DNA from: Paludibacter sp.
Lineage (GTDB): Bacteria; Bacteroidota; Bacteroidia; Bacteroidales; Paludibacteraceae
Direction of reading: 5' to 3'
Length of the DNA: 64,000 nucleotides
Assembly (NCBI GenBank): GCA_019163375.1
Contig: JAFLKK010000005.1
Coordinates: 97,511-161,510, forward strand
In this document: positions 47,847-64,000 of the stretch, one piece after another
How the letters are laid out: every line of letters begins with the position of its first letter
How positions within the stretch are numbered: position 1 is the stretch's first letter
Translations under genes and position numbers: made by a program
Notes under the pieces: generated by a model
What the model was told of the DNA's origin: nothing
Database searches by the model: none
What the model saw: only the letters and a program-made list of their open reading frames with translations

Positions 47847-48632
47847 TTATCGTAGCTCAAGCTGTTCGGATAAACTGCAAGCCATATTTATAGAATTTAC
47901 ATATAATTTGCTGTGAATATTTGCACAATGTTTTCGCACAGTTGTCTCTTCAATTTCGAATATATTTGCAATTTGTGCTTTGGTAAATCCCTTATCTACA
48001 AAATATAATATATCTTTTTCTTTCTTTGTTAGATGCGGAACTTCAAATTCCCACACTTTTTTAAATAAATGAATCTGACGGCCGGGATGAACTGAAAATA
48101 ACTGATAGCGTTCATCATTTTCTGCATTAAAAATTTTACAAGGCTGCGAACTAATCATTATGAGCCATGGATTATCGTTTTCATCGCTCATAATAAGATT
48201 AATTTTGTGTATTTGACACTGGAAATCAACTTCGTTTAACATTATTCGCCGCTGATAAACCAATACAAATTCGTTCTGTTGTCTGGGGCTGAGTAACATT
48301 AAAAATCTATATGCCGCAATTTGCAATTTGAGTAAAAACATACGATCATCTACATGCGTCATCTCCCATATATAGTTTCCGTTACGCAGTGCACAAAGAG
48401 ACAGATTCAATTTGTTTGCTACACTTTCTTTGGCTGATTGATGTGCGATAACTTGTCCTTTTTGAAAATCATAAATTGTATAAGATTTACCTTCAATCTG
48501 TGCCAAAGTTTTAATATTTTTTATCCAAATGTCCCTTTCTATTTCTTTTTGAGGACTGATAACATAGCTGTTATTTTGAAAATAATTTCTTAATTCTTGC
48601 TTCAAAGCTTCGAATTTATAATAATTGTTCAT
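47847..48632 (-). CDS. LuxR/FixJ-type helix-turn-helix regulator
   Basis: This 261-residue protein has a C-terminal LuxR-type helix-turn-helix (about 193-255): PHLTKKEKDILYFVDKGFTKAQIA, then the recognition helix EETTVRKHCANIHSKL. The N-terminal 190 residues have no receiver domain with Asp-Asp-Lys, and no HPt or PAS motif I can name. It resembles the ligand- or PAS-like N-termini of Bacteroidota LuxR solo regulators. Immediately upstream lie 230 bp of non-coding DNA and then an orphan hairpin. Confidence 0.8.
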   Translation of the reverse strand: MNNYYKFEALKQELRNYFQNNSYVISPQKEIERDIWIKNIKTLAQIEGKSYTIYDFQKGQVIAHQSAKESVANKLNLSLCALRNGNYIWEMTHVDDRMFLLKLQIAAYRFLMLLSPRQQNEFVLVYQRRIMLNEVDFQCQIHKINLIMSDENDNPWLIMISSQPCKIFNAENDERYQLFSVHPGRQIHLFKKVWEFEVPHLTKKEKDILYFVDKGFTKAQIANIFEIEETTVRKHCANIHSKLYVNSINMACSLSEQLELR

Positions 48633-48874
48633 GGTTAAAAATAGTTAAGTTGTATCTGTTTATAGCAACTAAAGTTCTTAAATTTAATCAATTAAAATGT
48701 AAACATCATAATTCAGTCCTATATCTCGCAAGAGTGGACACTCCCCTACTCCACCTTCTGTTTAAATTTTAAGAGCATCTTATCACGACTCGACCTACTT
48801 TTAATTGATTATTTTTTAGCTGTGTTGTAAATATAGATTGCTCAATCCAAACCTGCAAGAAATTTTTTAATTTT

Positions 48875-48912
48875 CTTATAAAAAATACTCCGAAGGGAGT
48901 ATTTTTTATAAG
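48875..48912. terminator. Orphan perfect hairpin with terminator-like arms
   Basis: CTTATAAAAAATACTCC (48875-48891) and GGAGTATTTTTTATAAG (48896-48912) are exact complements with a GAAG loop. A and T runs within the arms give it terminator character on both strands, yet no gene ends here on either strand. Confidence 0.55.
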
Positions 48913-49032
48913 ATTTATTTACTATTATTTTACAGTTATAATAATACAACCGGTTAGTAGAAACGAAAGATAATATAGTAAGCAGGAAACTAATATATCA
49001 ACCAGCTATAACTTATCAACTAATTTCTATTA

Positions 49033-49284
49033 ATGCTAAGGAATAAGCTATTACTAAGAAGTATTACTACATTCATGACAAGTAATAAGGCAATAATGGT
49101 TATGAATGCTTCATTACTGACCATTAATAGTCTATTCATGACAAGTAATATGCCATTAATGGTTATGAATGCTTCATTCCTAACAAGTAATGCTCTATTC
49201 ATGACAAGTAATACCTTATTAATGGTCATGAATGCTTCATTCCTAACAAGTAATACTTTATTAATGATCATGAATAGAGCATTA
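49033..49284. repeat. Twelve phased 21-bp repeats
   Basis: The 252 bp divide exactly into twelve 21-mers with no indel. Typical units are ATGACAAGTAATACCTTATT, ATGGTCATGAATGCTTCATT and CTAACAAGTAATGCTCTATT (each plus A or C); three unit types alternate to give a 63-bp higher-order period. Ten units contain AAT-N5-ATT, a dyad such as AATGCTTCATT. Both strands stay open as reading frames through it: the plus strand (49033-49293) reads as heptads with Asn in the fourth position (MVMNASF, LTSNALF, MTSNTLL), which follows from the 21-bp unit. I treat it as DNA repeat rather than a gene because no ribosome-binding site or composition supports translation. Confidence 0.85.
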
Positions 49285-49383
49285 CTGATATAGAAAACTG
49301 CAGTGCAATACTAATTATTCATTGATTAACAGAAACTTATATATTTCTTAATCATAACAATAATCATTAAAATTTATCGAATT

Positions 49384-50010
49384 ATGACAAAAGCAAAAGT
49401 AATTGTTGATTTTTCAGCAAATCGTTATTCCGACCTGGAGTTAAAGAACATAGCGGAAACTATCGGAGAAGATCTTTTAAACAGTACCACCTTTCAGTCA
49501 CTGAATGAAATGGCAAATGCAATTAAAAGTCAGGCAACTGATTTTGGCTCGTGGCTAATTAAAATGCCCGAAGGCAACAAACAAGTTACCCTGTCTAAAA
49601 ACCAGTCGAGGGGTCTGTTAGAAAATTCACTGAGCACTGCCGCCATCAAAGTGCAGGACTTAAGTAATGGTGATGAGAAACTTATCCTTAGTGCCGGTTT
49701 TGAAGTAAAGCGTAAACGGGCTCCGGTAGGCTTGCTCGATCGTCCTGAGAACGTGATTGCTAAAGCAGGACCTACGCGCGGTAGTTTGGAAATCAGTTGG
49801 AATGTAGTACCCAACGCGTATCTGTACGAAGTGCAATACACCGAAGCACCCGCTACTGTGGATAGCAAATGGTCACATACTTCGAGCACCAAGCATAAGA
49901 TGGTCATCGACGGCTTAACCCGTGGCAAAGCGTACGTCATACAGGTAGCCGCTGCCGGTTCAGATCCCGGCCGTGTGTGGAGCGATGAGATGATCAGTTA
50001 TGTGATGTAA
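49384..50010 (+). CDS. Fibronectin type III domain protein
   Basis: This 208-residue protein lacks a signal peptide. Its first 120 residues (MTKAKVIVDFSANRYSDLEL onward) are a helical or mixed region seen in a Bacteroidota family. A fibronectin III domain follows, about residues 118-205: PENVIAKAGPTRGSLEISWNVVPNAY, ending GKAYVIQVAAAGSDPGRVW. Base composition is more GC-rich than the defence genes that follow. The 21-bp repeat array ends 99 bp upstream, so the array may control this gene. The function is unknown. Confidence 0.8.
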   Translation: MTKAKVIVDFSANRYSDLELKNIAETIGEDLLNSTTFQSLNEMANAIKSQATDFGSWLIKMPEGNKQVTLSKNQSRGLLENSLSTAAIKVQDLSNGDEKLILSAGFEVKRKRAPVGLLDRPENVIAKAGPTRGSLEISWNVVPNAYLYEVQYTEAPATVDSKWSHTSSTKHKMVIDGLTRGKAYVIQVAAAGSDPGRVWSDEMISYVM

Positions 50011-50234: not shown

Positions 50235-51950
50235 ATGGCTATAATACATTCATTAAAAATATCAAACTTTCGAGGAATAAAAAGTTTTGAACAAATTTTT
50301 GAAGACCACGATTTTGTATGTATTGTTGGTCGAGGTGATACTGGAAAAACAACAATACTTGATGCAATCTCATATGTCTTATCTCCAAACTGGAATATAA
50401 CATTCTACGATACTGATTTTAATAATTGTGACATAGATACTCCAATTGAAATAGAGATATCAATCTCAGATGTACCTTCAAGGTTGCTACAATTAGATAA
50501 GTTTGGTAGTTATATTCGTTTCTTAAATTTAAGTACAAAGGTAATACAAGATGATTATATAGATGATGCAATACCTATTTTGACAATACACTTAAAAGTT
50601 GAAAGGGATTTAGAACCAATATGGTACGTTTCAAGTTGCAAGGGTGAAACAAAAGAAATAAAATCAAATGATAGATCTAAATTAAATGTTTTTCTTGTTT
50701 CGGATTTTATAAATCAACATTTCTCATGGAATAAAGGAACCCCATTATATTCTTTACTTAAACAAGCAGATGGAACAACAGAAAATACTTCAATAGTTAT
50801 TGATGCATTAAGAAATGCAAAGGAGAAAGTAAATGATGCAGACTTTACTCATTTAGATCCAGTTATTGATATTATAAAAACGATTGCTGCAAGCTTAGGT
50901 ATTGATATAGCAAATACATTAACAAGTATTGATTTAAAGGATCTTTCAATAAAAGATGGGAGGATATGTCTCCATGATGAAAATATTCCGTTTAGATTAA
51001 AAGGTAAAGGATCAAAAAGATTAATTTCAATTGGAATTCAAATTGCATTAGCAAAACTGGGAGGAATTATATTAATCGATGAATTAGAACAAGGATTAGA
51101 ACCTGATAGAGTAAAACATTTAATTAGAACTTTATATAACAATAACAAAAAAAACAAAACACAGATATTTATTACAACACACTCTCAGAATGTCGTTGAA
51201 GAACTTGAATGTGATAATTTATTTTTTTTGAATAATGACTCAGGTGTTCTTACAGGTAATTTTATACCTAGTGAAGACAAATATCAAAGTCTTATACGTT
51301 TTTGTCCATCAGCTATATATGCTAAAAAAATTATTGTTTGCGAAGGTAAAACTGAAATTGGTATTTGTAGGGCTTTAGATCAATATAGAATTAATACTGG
51401 TTCTTCAAGCTTTACAACAAATAATGTGGTTTATGTTGATGGAAGTGGATCTTCCTTTACTGATAGAGCTTTGAGATTAAAAAAACTTGAACTTGAAGTT
51501 TGTATTTTATCTGATTCCGATAGAGATGAAACATTAAACCCTACTAAGGATGAATTACTTGCTGCAGGAATAATAATTATTGACTGGGAAGCTGGGAAGT
51601 CAATAGAAAGACAAATATTTGATGATCTTCCTTGGAATGGGATTGTTAATCTAGTTGATTATCGCATTAAAGACAAAAAAGGTAATATTAAGTCTGTAAT
51701 TGATTCAATCAATGAATTTTCAGTTATTCCATTGACTCCAAATTGGAAGGAAACCCCAACAGATGAAATAAGAGATTCAATTTATCAAGCATGCACAAAA
51801 AAAGTACCTAAACCAGATGAAGACAAATCATGGTTTAAAAGAATTGATCATGGAGAAGAATTAGGTAATATAATCTTTGATTATTTCGAAGAGATGAAAG
51901 GTAAAAGATTACATATAAAATTGCAAGAACTATCTAATTGGATTGGTTAA
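50235..51950 (+). CDS. OLD-family ATPase/TOPRIM nuclease, GajA-like
   Basis: This 571-residue protein has an N-terminal ABC-type ATPase: LKISNFRGIKSFE, Walker A GRGDTGKT at 32-39, Walker B ILIDELEQGLEP near 278-290, and THSQNVVEELE as the His switch. A C-terminal TOPRIM nuclease domain follows, with the catalytic Glu370 in VCEGKTE and the metal-binding DSDRDE at 427-432. The size and domain order match GajA of Gabija, a tetrameric nuclease that nicks phage DNA when nucleotides are depleted. The stop codon shares a base with the start of the helicase gene, as expected of a translationally coupled pair. AT-rich composition differs from neighbours and suggests transfer. Confidence 0.85.
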   Translation: MAIIHSLKISNFRGIKSFEQIFEDHDFVCIVGRGDTGKTTILDAISYVLSPNWNITFYDTDFNNCDIDTPIEIEISISDVPSRLLQLDKFGSYIRFLNLSTKVIQDDYIDDAIPILTIHLKVERDLEPIWYVSSCKGETKEIKSNDRSKLNVFLVSDFINQHFSWNKGTPLYSLLKQADGTTENTSIVIDALRNAKEKVNDADFTHLDPVIDIIKTIAASLGIDIANTLTSIDLKDLSIKDGRICLHDENIPFRLKGKGSKRLISIGIQIALAKLGGIILIDELEQGLEPDRVKHLIRTLYNNNKKNKTQIFITTHSQNVVEELECDNLFFLNNDSGVLTGNFIPSEDKYQSLIRFCPSAIYAKKIIVCEGKTEIGICRALDQYRINTGSSSFTTNNVVYVDGSGSSFTDRALRLKKLELEVCILSDSDRDETLNPTKDELLAAGIIIIDWEAGKSIERQIFDDLPWNGIVNLVDYRIKDKKGNIKSVIDSINEFSVIPLTPNWKETPTDEIRDSIYQACTKKVPKPDEDKSWFKRIDHGEELGNIIFDYFEEMKGKRLHIKLQELSNWIG

Positions 51951-53434
51951 TGGATATTGAAGATTTTATATTGCAACCTAAATCAATGTTGATTGCACCT
52001 GCAGGATATGGTAAAACATATACCATTGCATCTTGCTTGCATTATATTGAAGAACATAAACTAGGTAAGCATCTAATATTAACTCATACACATGCAGGAA
52101 TTATCTCTATTAAAGAAAAACTGAATAAATTAAAAGTATCTACAAGTTTTTATTCAGTTGAAACTATAACAAGTTTTGCTCAAAAATTTGTTTTATCATT
52201 TTATAGAGGTGAAATATATAACCAAGAAGACAATGAACATTACTATTCTTTTATAATTGCAAAAGCAACAGAAATAATTAAAATCAAGCCAATTACTGAA
52301 ATAATTAAAGAATCATATACAGGTCTATTTGTTGATGAATATCAAGATTGTACAATAGACCAACATGCATTAATTTTAGAAATTTCCAATTTATTAAAAA
52401 CACATATACTAGGGGACCCATTACAAGGTATCTTTAGTTTTGCAGGGACACTTGTAAATTTAGAAAGTAATATTGATATGGGAGAATTTCTTCAGCATCA
52501 ACAAATACTTGAAACTCCTTGGAGATGGAAAAATGGAAATAATGAGGAACTAGGTAAACAATTAGGAAATATTAGAACTGAATTAATTGACAACAAACAA
52601 ATAAAAATTTCAAATCATAAAGCAATAGAAACTATAATAACTAATGACTACCTTAATGAGAAAAGGAAGATTTATGAAATAATAAAAAATAATGATAGTG
52701 TGCTATTCATTGATCCAGGTTCATACGATATTGACTCTAGAATAAAGTTTCTTCAACAATTTTCTAATATTCCTATATTGATTGAATCAATTGATGATAA
52801 GAATTTTTATTTATTAGCAAATAAAATTGATGAGATTACTGCTGTTAATGTTATTCATGTTTTAAAGGAAGTTTTAATAAAAATCTCAAATGAATCACTC
52901 GTAAAAAAATGGTTTAATGATAAAGACCTTATAAAGAAACAATCAATTGAAGATCAAGATGCATCGAAAGCGCTCTCAATTTCAATAAACAACTTTAAAC
53001 TGACGTTATCAAAACATGAGATTAAAATTATGATTCAAGAATTTTTTAAATTACCTGATGCAAAATCCAAATGTTATAGAAAAGACTTATTTAATTCGTT
53101 AGTATCAACAATTGAAGATGCTGAAATTAATAAAATATCAGTATACGAAGCAATGGTAAAAAGAAGAAATAACATTAGAAGAATTGGCAGAAAGGTATAT
53201 GGTAAATGTATAGGAACGACATTATTGACAAAGGGATTGGAATTTGATACAGTCATTGTTTTAAATGCACATAAGTTTAATGACATGAAAAACCTTTATG
53301 TTGCTTTGACACGTGCATCTAAAAATTTGATTGTGTTTACCGATAATCCGATTTTAAGTTTTATCCCTAAAAAAACACCTAAAGTAAGATCAGTGAAAGA
53401 TTTTAGTCAGATGCAATTATTGTTTGAAGAATAG
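51950..53434 (+). CDS. UvrD/Rep-like SF1 helicase, GajB-like
   Basis: I use the ATG at 51950, which overlaps the previous stop (TAATG); a TTG four codons earlier is less likely. The result is 494 residues. Walker A is APAGYGKT at 16-23, motif II is DEYQDC at 129-134, motif III is ILGDPLQGIFSFAG (about 154-167), and the C-terminal motifs V/VI are LTKGLEFDTVIVLN and LYVALTRASKNLIVF (about 448). Class 2 OLD nucleases pair with a helicase of this type. GajB senses DNA termini in Gabija and stimulates the nuclease. The length equals that of characterised GajB, as far as I recall it. Confidence 0.85.
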   Translation: MDIEDFILQPKSMLIAPAGYGKTYTIASCLHYIEEHKLGKHLILTHTHAGIISIKEKLNKLKVSTSFYSVETITSFAQKFVLSFYRGEIYNQEDNEHYYSFIIAKATEIIKIKPITEIIKESYTGLFVDEYQDCTIDQHALILEISNLLKTHILGDPLQGIFSFAGTLVNLESNIDMGEFLQHQQILETPWRWKNGNNEELGKQLGNIRTELIDNKQIKISNHKAIETIITNDYLNEKRKIYEIIKNNDSVLFIDPGSYDIDSRIKFLQQFSNIPILIESIDDKNFYLLANKIDEITAVNVIHVLKEVLIKISNESLVKKWFNDKDLIKKQSIEDQDASKALSISINNFKLTLSKHEIKIMIQEFFKLPDAKSKCYRKDLFNSLVSTIEDAEINKISVYEAMVKRRNNIRRIGRKVYGKCIGTTLLTKGLEFDTVIVLNAHKFNDMKNLYVALTRASKNLIVFTDNPILSFIPKKTPKVRSVKDFSQMQLLFEE

Positions 53435-54348: not shown

Positions 54349-55476
54349 ATGAAAAAGATAATTCTAGTTTTTGTTATCCAATTATTTATTAACCTTGGGT
54401 ATAGCCAACATCATGCTTCTATAATCAGAGCCTATTCTGTAGATATAATGGGCGATACTATTGTAAAAGATGAGCATGGTAACAAGATAGAAGTAATTTC
54501 GAAAGATATTTTCGGAAACAAGGTAATTAAAGATGGAAACGGACAAACTATCAAGGTTATTTCGAAGGATATTTTTGGAAACACGATTGTAAAAGATGGT
54601 AATGGGCAAACTATCCAGACTATTTCGAAAGATATTTTTGGAAGCACGATTGTAAAAGATGGTGATGGACAAACTATCAAGACTATCTCGAAAGATATTT
54701 TTGGAAGCACGATTGTAAAAGATGGTGATGGGCAAACTATCAAGACTATCTCGAAGGATATTTTTGGAAGTACGATTGTAAAAGATGGTGATGGGCAAAC
54801 TATCAAGACTATCTCGAAAGATATTTTTGGAAATACAGTTGTTAAAGAAGATAATGGGCATAAAGTTCTTAGCATAGAACAAAATATTTTTGATGATACG
54901 GTAATTAAGGACGAAAAAGGACAAACTATCAAAACTATTTCGAAAGACATTTTTGGCAGTACGATTGTAAAAGATGGTAATGGGCAAACTATTAAATCTA
55001 TTTCGAAAGATATCTTTGGAAACACAGTTATTAAAGATGGTAATAGTAAGACTATCAATACTATCTCGAAAGATATATTTGGTAATACTGTGATAAAAAA
55101 TGATAACGGAATAACAATTATCAGTATAGGAAAAAATATATTTGGTGATAAAGTGATTAAAGGTGAAAATGGACAGATTATCAAAACAATTTCGAAAGAC
55201 ATATTTGGCAATACAATAATAAAAGATGGCGATGGTCGAAAAGTTAGCAGTATAGAGAAGGATATATTTGGCAATACCCTGATTAAAGATGGAAATGGGC
55301 AGCTTATTAAAAGCTTTTCGAAAGATGCGTTTGGTGATTTGGTGGTGAAAACAGAGAACCCGGAACCGGAGTCTATGCATTCAACTAAAATAACCGTGGA
55401 TTTATTACAATTTGATGATGATGGAAACTTGAGTGAAAACTCATTAATTAATTTTATTCTGGGAAATACAAAATAA
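54349..55476 (+). CDS. Secreted protein of fifteen 21-residue repeats
   Basis: This 375-residue protein has a signal peptide (MKKIILVFVIQLFINLGYSQ) followed, from about residue 29 to 344, by fifteen consecutive 21-residue units. The consensus is SKDIFGNTIVKDGNGQTIKT plus I. Three units near residues 97-159 are almost identical at the DNA level (63-bp tandem repeats 54636-54824), so the array has recently expanded. Each unit looks like two short beta strands with a D-G-N-G turn, which would suit a beta-solenoid. The C-terminal 30 residues (MHSTKITVDLLQFDDDGNLS) differ. The repeat resembles no family I know. Long open frames on the opposite strand are by-products of the repeat. Confidence 0.85.
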   Translation: MKKIILVFVIQLFINLGYSQHHASIIRAYSVDIMGDTIVKDEHGNKIEVISKDIFGNKVIKDGNGQTIKVISKDIFGNTIVKDGNGQTIQTISKDIFGSTIVKDGDGQTIKTISKDIFGSTIVKDGDGQTIKTISKDIFGSTIVKDGDGQTIKTISKDIFGNTVVKEDNGHKVLSIEQNIFDDTVIKDEKGQTIKTISKDIFGSTIVKDGNGQTIKSISKDIFGNTVIKDGNSKTINTISKDIFGNTVIKNDNGITIISIGKNIFGDKVIKGENGQIIKTISKDIFGNTIIKDGDGRKVSSIEKDIFGNTLIKDGNGQLIKSFSKDAFGDLVVKTENPEPESMHSTKITVDLLQFDDDGNLSENSLINFILGNTK

Positions 55477-61798: not shown

Positions 61799-62155
61799 AT
61801 GAAGAATCAATTACTTAGCTGCGCCATGACTTTCATCCTTTCTGTTTTGATGAGCACAACTGTTTGGGGTCAGCAAAATGAACCAAGCAAAAGCAAAACA
61901 AATGAAAATTCCATAGTAGTAAAATTGGCGGCCGATACATCTCATTTTTCAATAAAAGTATCCGGCTCAACAAACTGTGTAAAGGTAAATGGAAAAATAA
62001 TGACCTCAACTACCGATTCAACAAATACAAATAATAAAATTAGTGTTAGTGGCGAAAGAAATACAGTCTCAATAATTCAGAGTGATAGAAAATCGGATGT
62101 AAATATAAAACAAGAAGGAGCACATAATCAGGCAATTATATCTCAAAGAAAATAA
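61799..62155 (+). CDS. Small secreted protein with one curlin-like motif
   Basis: This 118-residue protein has a signal peptide (MKNQLLSCAMTFILSVLMSTTVWGQQ, cleavage near residue 25). The mature region is Ser-, Thr-, Asn- and Lys-rich. The end carries a curlin-like motif (NTVSIIQSDRKSDVNIKQEG then AHNQAIISQ). A single repeat and its place at the head of the operon suit a minor or nucleator subunit such as CsgB. No other evidence fixes that role. Confidence 0.7.
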   Translation: MKNQLLSCAMTFILSVLMSTTVWGQQNEPSKSKTNENSIVVKLAADTSHFSIKVSGSTNCVKVNGKIMTSTTDSTNTNNKISVSGERNTVSIIQSDRKSDVNIKQEGAHNQAIISQRK

Positions 62156-62208
62156 CCGGTATTATATAATAATCAAGATTTTTTAACGCAACAAAAAAAA
62201 CAAATCTT

Positions 62209-63282
62209 ATGAAAAAGTTAAGTTTTATTATCGCAGCTCTCCTATTGTTTGTAGGAGTATCATTGGGACAAACAAACGTAGCAAATGTCACAGAATCGGG
62301 TACTGGACAAAATGCTTCAATCGATCAAAACGGGATTTTAAATAAATCCTACGTTACTCAGTCTAACTTAGAAAACACGGCCAAAGTAACTCAAATTAAT
62401 CACAATGCAGCATTTAGTACTCTTTCTGAGGTTAATCAATCGGGAGAAAAGAATTTATCGACCATCGAGCAAAACTCCAATGGATCGTTAACGACTAATC
62501 CTAATGTTGTTGGAGCTTTGAAAGCTGTTACAACTCAGTCTGGTAATCTGAACAAAGCGCTTCAAGTGCAGGGTCCAACATTGACAAATAATCAGCAGGG
62601 TAAATCACTTGCAGAAATTGTACAAAGTGGCAACGAAAATTATGCATCACAACATCAATTGAGATATGCCAATGATGCAAAAATAGTTCAATCGGGCCAT
62701 AGAAATACAGCCATGCAAGCCCAAGATGCAAAAATACTTCCTGAAGAAGAAGGAAGTGCAAACATTGCCTATATCGAACAAGGAGGAAGCGATAATACAG
62801 CTACTCAAACTCAGGATGGTTGGGCTAATGATGTAAAAGCATATCAAGCAGGCAATGGAAATACTTCAACTCAAATTCAACAGGACTATTCCTGGAAGAG
62901 TAAAGCTGATGTACACCAATCAGGCAACTATAATAAAGCTGATCAATTGCAGGTCGGCAATTTAAATTCTGCTGGCATTAATCAGGAATCAGGTTATAAT
63001 ACAGCTAAGCAAACCCAAACTACCTTAGGAGCTTCTCGTGGAGGCACAAATTATGATCCTTACAACGAAGCATGTATCGGTCAAAAGGGTGGTGACGGTA
63101 ATATTGCCGAACAAACTCAAACTTCACCTGGTGCAGGTGCAATAGAAAATTATGCACAAATTTGTCAGGATGGTGCTTTGAATTATGCAACACAAGTTCA
63201 GGTTGGTGGTGATAATTCAAGTATAATCTCTCAAGTTGGCAATGGAAACCATGCAGTTGTATCTCAAATGATGGTCCCATAA
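62209..63282 (+). CDS. Curlin-repeat amyloid subunit (CsgA-like)
   Basis: This 357-residue protein has a signal peptide (MKKLSFIIAALLLFVGVSLGQ). The mature part consists of repeats of about 20-25 residues with the curlin pattern Q-x-G-x-x-N-x-A-x-x-x-Q: QSGNLNKALQVQ, QSGNENYASQHQ, QSGHRNTAMQAQ, QAGNGNTSTQIQ, QSGNYNKADQLQ and others. Curlin proteins are secreted unfolded and polymerise into extracellular amyloid fibres for biofilm. At 357 residues it is longer than E. coli CsgA (about 150). It has a close paralogue at 63570. Confidence 0.88.
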   Translation: MKKLSFIIAALLLFVGVSLGQTNVANVTESGTGQNASIDQNGILNKSYVTQSNLENTAKVTQINHNAAFSTLSEVNQSGEKNLSTIEQNSNGSLTTNPNVVGALKAVTTQSGNLNKALQVQGPTLTNNQQGKSLAEIVQSGNENYASQHQLRYANDAKIVQSGHRNTAMQAQDAKILPEEEGSANIAYIEQGGSDNTATQTQDGWANDVKAYQAGNGNTSTQIQQDYSWKSKADVHQSGNYNKADQLQVGNLNSAGINQESGYNTAKQTQTTLGASRGGTNYDPYNEACIGQKGGDGNIAEQTQTSPGAGAIENYAQICQDGALNYATQVQVGGDNSSIISQVGNGNHAVVSQMMVP

Positions 63283-63485
63283 GTAGTGAGCGTTAAATAA
63301 CTACAGAAGTTTTTATCAGGTAAGTATAGCTATGAATTTGAAGGTCAAATTTATATTAATTTAATAAAAAATGATATACACAAGATATACAAATTTAAAA
63401 GCTTAAATATTATACCGGTTATTACATTCCTGGAAAGTTTCTGTAACTATTTAAGATTAGAATCAAACAGGCATAAGGTTTAAAG

Positions 63486-63508
63486 CCCCAACTCGTCGAG
63501 AGTTGGGG
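63486..63508 (+). terminator. Intergenic hairpin between the two curlin genes
   Basis: CCCCAACTC and GAGTTGGGG pair perfectly with a 5-nt loop (GTCGA). No T run follows, so it may be an mRNA-processing or stability element rather than a full terminator. Confidence 0.5.
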
Positions 63509-63569
63509 TAATAAACTGAAATTTATCTTACATTCAATTTAACTAACCAGTACATTTAAAATAATCGTT

Positions 63570-64000
63570 ATGAAAAAACTAAACTATATTATCGCAACTC
63601 TCCTATTGTTTACAGGAGGTATTTTCGCACAATCTAATATCGCAAATGTAACAGAATCCGGACAAGACCAAAATGCAACGATTGATCAAAAAGGGATTTT
63701 AAATCAATCGTATGTAAACCAATCAAATAAAGCAAATACGGCCTTAGTTACTCAGATAAATATGAATAAGAAAACAAATACTTATTCTGAGATAATTCAA
63801 TCCGGAGAAACAAACAAAGCCAAGGTTGAGCAAACTTCAAATGCGAGATTCCCATTATCAGTTGGTAAGATTGAAGCATACATCACTCAATCGGGTAATC
63901 AGAATGAGGCAGTACAGGTTCAGGGACCACATTTACTTCAGGGAAGAACATTTGGAGAAATTATTCAAGGTGGCAATGAAAATTATGCTTCGCAACACCA
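63570..64000 (+). CDS. Second curlin-repeat protein (partial, runs off the right edge)
   Basis: The ATG at 63570-63572 opens MKKLNYIIATLLLFTGGIFA, a signal peptide close to the previous gene. The 143 visible codons keep the same order of motifs as the 62209 gene (NVTESGQDQNATIDQKGILN, TQSGNQNEAVQVQGPHL, IIQGGNENYASQH), so it is a tandem duplicate. The remaining repeats lie outside the window. Confidence 0.88.
   Translation, partial: MKKLNYIIATLLLFTGGIFAQSNIANVTESGQDQNATIDQKGILNQSYVNQSNKANTALVTQINMNKKTNTYSEIIQSGETNKAKVEQTSNARFPLSVGKIEAYITQSGNQNEAVQVQGPHLLQGRTFGEIIQGGNENYASQH

Follow-up and report, generated by a model that had tools for sequence, protein, structure and literature searches.

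The window analysed in this work, a stretch of 64,000 nucleotides from the genome of a Paludibacter species, contains a tandem array of 21-bp units ahead of a gene for a small protein with a fibronectin type III (Fn3) domain. The question that this locus raises is whether the array is a peculiarity of one genome or a member of a wider class, and whether it is read as DNA, as RNA or as protein, or has little function of any kind. The array and the features surrounding it are summarized in Table 1.

Table 1. Positions within the window of the 21-bp array and of the features around it
Feature	Position	Strand	Description
GerE/LuxR-type regulator gene, divergent	47847..48632	-	Pfam GerE, 1.6e-10
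Perfect hairpin, 18-bp stem	48874..48913		A/T-rich ends; between regulator gene and array
21-bp repeat array	49033..49284		12 units; 63-bp higher-order repeat; AATN5ATT in 10 of 12 units
Open frame spanning array, 86 codons	49033..49293	+	ATG at 49033, TAG at 49291-49293; not regarded as a gene
Gap between array and ATG	49285..49383	+	AT-rich, probably leader
Gene for 208-aa protein	49384..50010	+	N-terminal helix bundle (residues ~17-103), C-terminal Fn3 domain (~114-208)

The original prediction, which was made from this DNA alone, described 12 units of 21 bp without any indel, and the stretch indeed divides exactly into units of this length. When the array is compared with itself, its identity is 0.56, 0.63 and 0.78 at lags of 21, 42 and 63 bp, respectively, and 0.25 and 0.26 at lags of 20 and 22 bp. 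The mean for the first three lags (0.658) lies far above the maximum of 0.376 that was observed among 1238 other 252-bp pieces of the same window, pieces around the array and around 54.2-55.4 kb having been omitted from this comparison. As TRF also assigns to the array a period of 63 bp (3.5 copies, 83% matches), the higher-order repeat of three alternating unit types that had been proposed is real. The dyad AATN5ATT, which had been reported for most units, begins at 49042 and then at every 21 bp from 49105 to 49273, always in one phase. Since this motif is not rare in the window as a whole (100 matches, 89.9 expected), it is its phase within the array, rather than its occurrence, that stands out. 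The distance of 99 bp between the array and the start codon, and the presence of a hairpin ahead of the array, were likewise as described. The hairpin has a folding energy of -23.1 kcal/mol (z -7.2) and looks like a terminator in both directions.

To place this array in a wider context, the 800 bp upstream of each gene were scored for every period from 11 to 40. The set of genes related to that of the 208-aa protein (family 1) comprised 109 entries, including truncated, broken or partial members (L010, L040, L081, L089); five entries with less than 250 bp of upstream sequence were omitted, leaving 104 testable loci. In 88 of these 104 loci, 21 was the best of all the periods, and the upstream score was at least 8 in 83 of them (median 15.2), compared with 5 of 107 on the downstream side (median 2.9). 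A score of at least 8 was also seen for 34 of 40 family-1 representatives that are less than 40% identical. In a control consisting of 400 kb of the Paludibacter genome, 13 of 980 half-overlapping windows reached this score, and they fall at six places (L160, L161, two in L163, L168 and L171), of which one L163 site is coding and at L168 period 14 outscores 21. Arrays of 21-bp units thus also exist away from Fn3 genes, far more rarely. Through the array at L161 a second protein of 221 aa (MADYIP...; L161:517-1182, corresponding to G000:C1:300517-301182) was found. In this second family, period 21 was best upstream of the gene in 19 of 22 cases, 17 of which score at least 8, while no downstream region out of 21 did so. 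The window array is, therefore, one member of a class that is tied to gene families, and most of the family-1 genes examined are accompanied by an array that belongs to them alone, with about 12 units (range 4-25) and a median distance of 170 bp from the ATG. Neither this tie nor the second, unrelated-looking family with the same kind of arrays had been noticed in the original prediction.

The rule is not absolute, as is evident from some arrays that lie 3' of the gene (6 of 86 in family 1), from arrays beside other genes, and from L156:1078-1515, where upstream of one Fn3-family gene a 20-bp array passes into a 21-bp array of another sequence. The arrays on the 3' side that were seen in detail are those at L138, L140 and L143 (G424, tandem Fn3-family gene pairs) and at L153 (G369). 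Further arrays in the control sample are found at L160:6944-7057 beside a small membrane-like ORF, at L163:1127-1342 on the 3' side of an ice-binding-like gene (Pfam 1.7e-67), and at L171:7883-7987 beside an ORF that comes after what we take to be a SusC-like leader.

In the 208-aa protein, Pfam recognises only the Fn3 half, and a search of NCBIfam yielded no credible model; for this family, the arrays provide a first handle. The protein is modelled as a helix bundle followed by an Fn3 domain, and a recognisable DNA-binding fold is absent from the lists of fold matches seen, which allow other folds. Matches were detected in 14 of 60 genomes in a first search, that of Paludibacter included, and in 112 of 296 genomes evenly sampled from the phylum, where most among the matches listed are plain Fn3 domains within long proteins. 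Among the matches listed, full-length or near full-length relatives outside the Paludibacter genome are found in seven genomes (G312, G314, G185, G092, G251, G225 and G094). In a search at the level of the order, 19 of 295 genomes reached an E-value of 1e-12, some of them with up to 10 matches; named carriers include Paludibacter sp. STB_36, an uncultured Bacteroidales MAG, Mangrovibacterium lignilyticum and M. marinum. No match to the 208-aa protein was found in the plasmid and phage records searched. The Paludibacter genome itself contains three further paralogues, one of them broken, and one truncated copy. For the 221-aa protein, relatives are present in 14 of 60 genomes, a Pfam search gave no match, and a profile comparison of the two array-linked families revealed no similarity between them. 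A truncated family-1 gene directly adjoins a fragment of a family-2 gene at G000:C1:816970-817680.

The feature that these arrays have in common is their period. Arrays could be extracted at 86 of the 109 family-1 and 18 of the 23 family-2 entries. In the 86 arrays, the spacing is exactly 21 bp at 1018 of 1032 unit junctions, and in the 35 most diverged of them, whose neighbouring units are less than 60% identical and differ at about 4600 bases, the same is true for 455 of 464 junctions, counts that favour in-phase arrays because the arrays were detected by their 21-bp period and every shift cost 4 bits in the alignment. These results bear out the earlier suggestion that length is constrained above sequence. 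Close homologues hold the phase without drift in unit length, and the number of units varies between them (9, 10 and 14 units in L183, L184 and L186; 9 and 12 in L100 and L123). Mixed spacings of 20-22 bp or a weak signal were seen at the degenerate loci L008, L029, L036 and L010. The 21-mer consensus that was to be sought in related genomes does not exist as a fixed sequence, as the unit differs from locus to locus, for example CTTACTTCCTTATGGAAATGA in L033, ACAAAAACAGACCTGCATAGA in L024 and AAAAGCAATTGAAACAGGAGT in L038.

The similarity of the motifs falls with that of the proteins. For family-1 proteins less than 40% identical, only 1-6% of pairs exceed the 99% point of the null distribution of motif similarity, and motif-sharing pairs number 8 of 94 at 40-50% identity, 10 of 42 at 50-60%, 14 of 24 at 60-80% and 2 of 3 above 80% (16 of 27 for all pairs above 60%). 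In family 2, motifs are shared by 7 of 8 pairs above 80% identity and by 4 of 36 at 60-80%. The proteins of L032 and L035 are 95% identical and their motifs correlate with an r of 0.57, and in L030 and L033, with proteins 77% identical, the same motif is present in inverted form (0.89 in reverse, 0.62 in forward orientation). A switch of this kind is also seen within a single array (L138:2292-2707, in the orientation of the gene strand), where the core TCCTTTACAGGA is present in 8 units and its reverse complement in the following 7, in phase; here a 12-bp core would have been reversed with the spacer unchanged, or alternatively two base changes could account for it. Higher-order units of 42 and 63 bp also occur in the arrays, which indicates amplification via duplication of multiple units. 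Such units, the fast turnover of sequence and the 21-bp arrays beside other genes are what one would expect if the arrays were the product of a mutational process, such as slippage or templated amplification proceeding in 21-bp steps within long leaders, with little or no function, and other short tandem repeats located between promoter and start codon are described for Bacteroidetes in an earlier report (PMC4679880). However, the link to two protein families and the phase that is kept in the diverged arrays require either selection or a process aimed at these genes, and the dyads described next exceed those of permuted columns. We consider this explanation unlikely.

In comparison with column permutation, a significant dyad is present in 60 of 86 family-1 arrays, 6 of 18 family-2 arrays and 17 of 45 arrays that are non-redundant in motif; 26 of 86 and 12 of 18 arrays of the two families are without one. 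As many arrays have an imperfect dyad in each unit, the most plausible reading of a unit is a binding site for a dimeric protein. The original prediction had further proposed that units of 21 bp, or two helical turns, place all sites on the same face of the DNA, and this holds in part: in the variability of the columns the 10.5-bp harmonic is raised (0.155, with 0.1 expected), but in base composition it is not (0.092), and the 20-bp array at L156 indicates that an exact two-turn phase is not universal. Since the 21-bp harmonic of variability is raised as well (0.153), the rise at 10.5 bp may partly reflect smoothness. A somewhat raised 7-bp harmonic (0.148) was seen in the G+C pattern only.

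The position of the arrays relative to signals of transcription was examined by means of the Bacteroidetes promoter consensus. Upstream of the arrays the consensus was found at 12 of 97 loci on the gene strand and 6 on the other strand (1.8 expected for each); the gaps that precede the ATG contained it in 2 of 97 cases, with 1.1 expected. For the -7 box taken by itself, the counts are 6 of 97 in the gaps, 25 of 97 in the sequence upstream of the arrays and 72 of 158 for control genes from the Paludibacter genome. At the window locus the consensus was not recognised upstream of the repeats. A terminator-like hairpin was found downstream of the gene in 36 of 95 cases and in the gap ahead of it in 2 of 97; such hairpins are not recurrent in the 200 bp upstream of the arrays (2 of 97). 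Because promoters are enriched upstream of the arrays and not in the gaps, and terminators come after the gene, the array probably lies in a transcribed leader. The simplest order, as far as such signals indicate, is probably promoter, leader, array, gene and terminator in one transcript, although an activator-dependent promoter without the consensus, located in the gap, would also fit.

If the array is transcribed, as the promoters upstream of it and the 95 of 97 loci with no terminator before the gene make probable, it might act as RNA, the leader of 21-nt repeats binding the encoded or another protein either in the manner of a type III antitoxin or as a post-transcriptional scaffold. On both strands, folding is more stable than in arrays with permuted columns (mean z of -2.65 for sense and -3.11 for antisense), and the arrays are specific to their loci, as are type III antitoxins. 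However, the sense strand is not favoured, having the lower energy in only 40 of 101 arrays (p 0.03 in the opposite direction). The mismatches at dyad positions (127 A-C, 102 G-T) reveal no RNA-like tolerance or excess of G-U pairs, the motif is inverted between the close homologues L030 and L033, some arrays lie 3' of the gene, and a search of Rfam gave no match at the gathering score. Our loci resemble the type III toxin-antitoxin systems (ToxIN, CptIN) in having locus-specific tandem repeats followed by a gene for a small protein and, probably, a promoter ahead of the repeats. According to PMC8860590, the repeats of these systems precede the gene, as they do here in 88 of 104 loci (6 of 86 arrays being 3'), but a hairpin terminator separates the two, unlike the situation in our arrays, where one is present in 2 of 97 gaps. 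The ToxI clusters of E. coli contain, according to that report, 3-5.6 repeats (PMC8860590), in contrast to about 12 units of 21 bp in ours. Our arrays also differ in lacking a sense-strand RNA signature, and while the type III toxin is an endoribonuclease of the ToxN kind, our protein is predicted to be a helix bundle with an Fn3 domain, the fold lists leaving other folds possible. A role of the array as RNA is, in our judgement, improbable.

It is even less probable, indeed very unlikely, that the array is translated into a peptide with a repeat of seven residues. In the window, an open frame of 86 codons covers the array exactly, and over 86 arrays the gene strand has 68 of 258 frames open (46.1 expected from permuted columns). 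However, almost as many frames are open on the other strand (60 of 258, 51 expected; p 0.54 for the difference), and in the window one minus-strand frame is likewise open across the array. The 3-bp harmonic is 0.093 in composition and 0.082 in variability (0.1 expected), so that the codon-position signal of a conserved protein, which would have spoken against a DNA element, is absent, and the orientation of the arrays flips. For the window peptide, neither Pfam (best match 0.39) nor NCBIfam (0.0085, with 15 bits where the cut-off is 604) gave a match that came close to a curated threshold, and PHROGs gave none at all.

The reading that we favour, tentatively and with somewhat less than even confidence, is that the array consists of phase-locked sites for a dimeric protein, probably within a transcribed leader, on which a cooperative filament forms that gates the gene. 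The array would be a cis-acting DNA element of the gene family situated in the transcribed 5' leader. With a spacing of two helical turns all sites would lie on one face of the DNA, and cooperatively bound dimers could form one straight filament serving as a switch, whether by acting as a silencer or roadblock within the leader or by providing a platform from which the gene is activated. The units of one locus would co-evolve via multi-unit duplication, allowing the sequence of the site to drift with the locus's own binder, and the period would stay fixed since drift in it would break the filament. What the data show is the class itself, the strictness of its period, its association with the gene families, the dyads, the turnover of sequence and, statistically, where promoters and terminators are placed; the binding of a protein, its dimeric state, its cooperativity and the control of the gene by the array are what we infer. 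Counting against such a filament are the arrays without dyads, the L156 array, the arrays located 3' of the gene, the flat 10.5-bp harmonic of composition and the changes of motif between similar proteins (family 2 at 60-80% identity; L032/L035). A filament within a transcribed leader would also be an unusual design.

The first candidates for the binder are the divergent regulators of the GerE and AraC types, which are present at some loci (adjacent at a minority), and in the window the GerE/LuxR-type regulator is the candidate. Upstream neighbours were scanned for 96 of 129 entries, namely those with an ORF of 100 aa or more, and among the 25 most frequent Pfam families listed, GerE was found in 14 of 96 and AraC-type HTH in 5. 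No HTH family was present in two or more of 96 downstream neighbours among the 25 most frequent families listed (96 of 116 scanned; partial entries, second genes of tandem pairs and the last family-2 rows, 20 in all, were omitted). Regulators related to that of the window flank 20 family-1 entries and represent 18 distinct genes, 17 of them divergent and some ending at the edge of the locus before their HTH; for comparison, 4 GerE-like ORFs occur in the 400-kb control and 2 in family-2 flanks. At L007, L015 and L016, where the Fn3-family proteins are 64-73% identical and the arrays are related, the regulators are 23-26% identical by a rough alignment of mixed proteins, which counts against a filament formed by them. 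A second array with the motif of the window is present at L011:2755-2998 (G000:C1:450255-450497), directly after what is presumably a YihY-like gene and 414 bp upstream of a presumed CheB-like gene; the family searches of the Paludibacter genome placed no Fn3-family gene beside it. This array may be a second target, and its existence is as expected for an array of sites with a diffusible binder.

Alternatively, the Fn3 protein itself could bind the array, regulating or anchoring itself there. In favour of this, no other partner accompanies the arrays as constantly as the protein families do, and the motifs become more alike the more similar the proteins are. We regard this as quite unlikely, since the lists seen for the helix-bundle and Fn3 model, which allow other folds, contain no recognisable DNA-binding fold, near-identical proteins have changed motifs (L032/L035), the relation is loose in family 2, and two families without detectable similarity would both need to bind.

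A binding array of the kind that we favour can be compared with several known elements. Iterons and centromere-like arrays (ParR/parC, omega heptads) are direct repeats of about two helical turns that are read by dimers with the phase kept, and the iteron sequence is fixed within a replicon family. Our arrays share the two-turn direct repeats and the retained phase, and may share the reading by a dimer, but they are chromosomal, many different ones occur per genome, and their sequence is variable. No Rep or Par gene was recognised beside the window array, whose neighbours are the GerE regulator, the Fn3 protein and a Gabija pair. Operator arrays with dyadic sites and a divergent regulator gene are a textbook arrangement, which our loci resemble in their repeated dyadic sites and, at some loci, in a divergent HTH regulator; they differ in that their sites, about 12 in number, are contiguous, measure exactly 21 bp and lie downstream of the likely promoter, with a regulator adjacent at a minority of loci. 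Tandem heptamer repeats such as TAACTGA also occur ahead of genes, those of Bacteroidetes included, and they are described as a fixed 7-mer, in one genome mostly within nucleotides of the start codon (PMC4679880). In contrast to these heptamers (TAACTGA, STRR), our unit is variable, 21 bp long and a median of 170 bp from the ATG, and in the window array the identity at lag 7 is 0.38, compared with 0.56 at lag 21.

Regulatory DNA is normally recognised via conserved sequence, and motif searches miss these arrays because their period is fixed and their sequence is free. It is possible, although we consider it doubtful, that they represent a phylum-wide class of leader-embedded elements in which a 21-bp dyadic period, rather than a sequence, is conserved, a nucleoprotein filament reads this period via helical phase, and the elements are linked to no fewer than two unrelated families of small proteins. 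If so, they would represent a novel type of cis element and offer access to a protein system that is spread through the Bacteroidota. If the period is what is read, the arrays would lend themselves, as a natural system, to the study of how selection acts on helical phase alone, and if every array has a regulator of its own, several insulated switches of one design would coexist in genomes with as many as 10 protein matches.

The window contains some other features of interest. Directly after the Fn3 gene, at 50235-53434, there is a Gabija defence pair (GajA-like, then GajB-like), and the Fn3 paralogue of L012 is likewise followed by an ORF that, as named from its sequence, is AAA-ATPase-like. 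At 54349-55476 a protein with many 21-residue repeats is encoded, whose DNA period of 63 bp belongs to a coding array unrelated to the 21-bp array. Lastly, the region 61799-63998 contains a run of what we take to be curlin-like repeat proteins, with repeats of the QxGxxN type.
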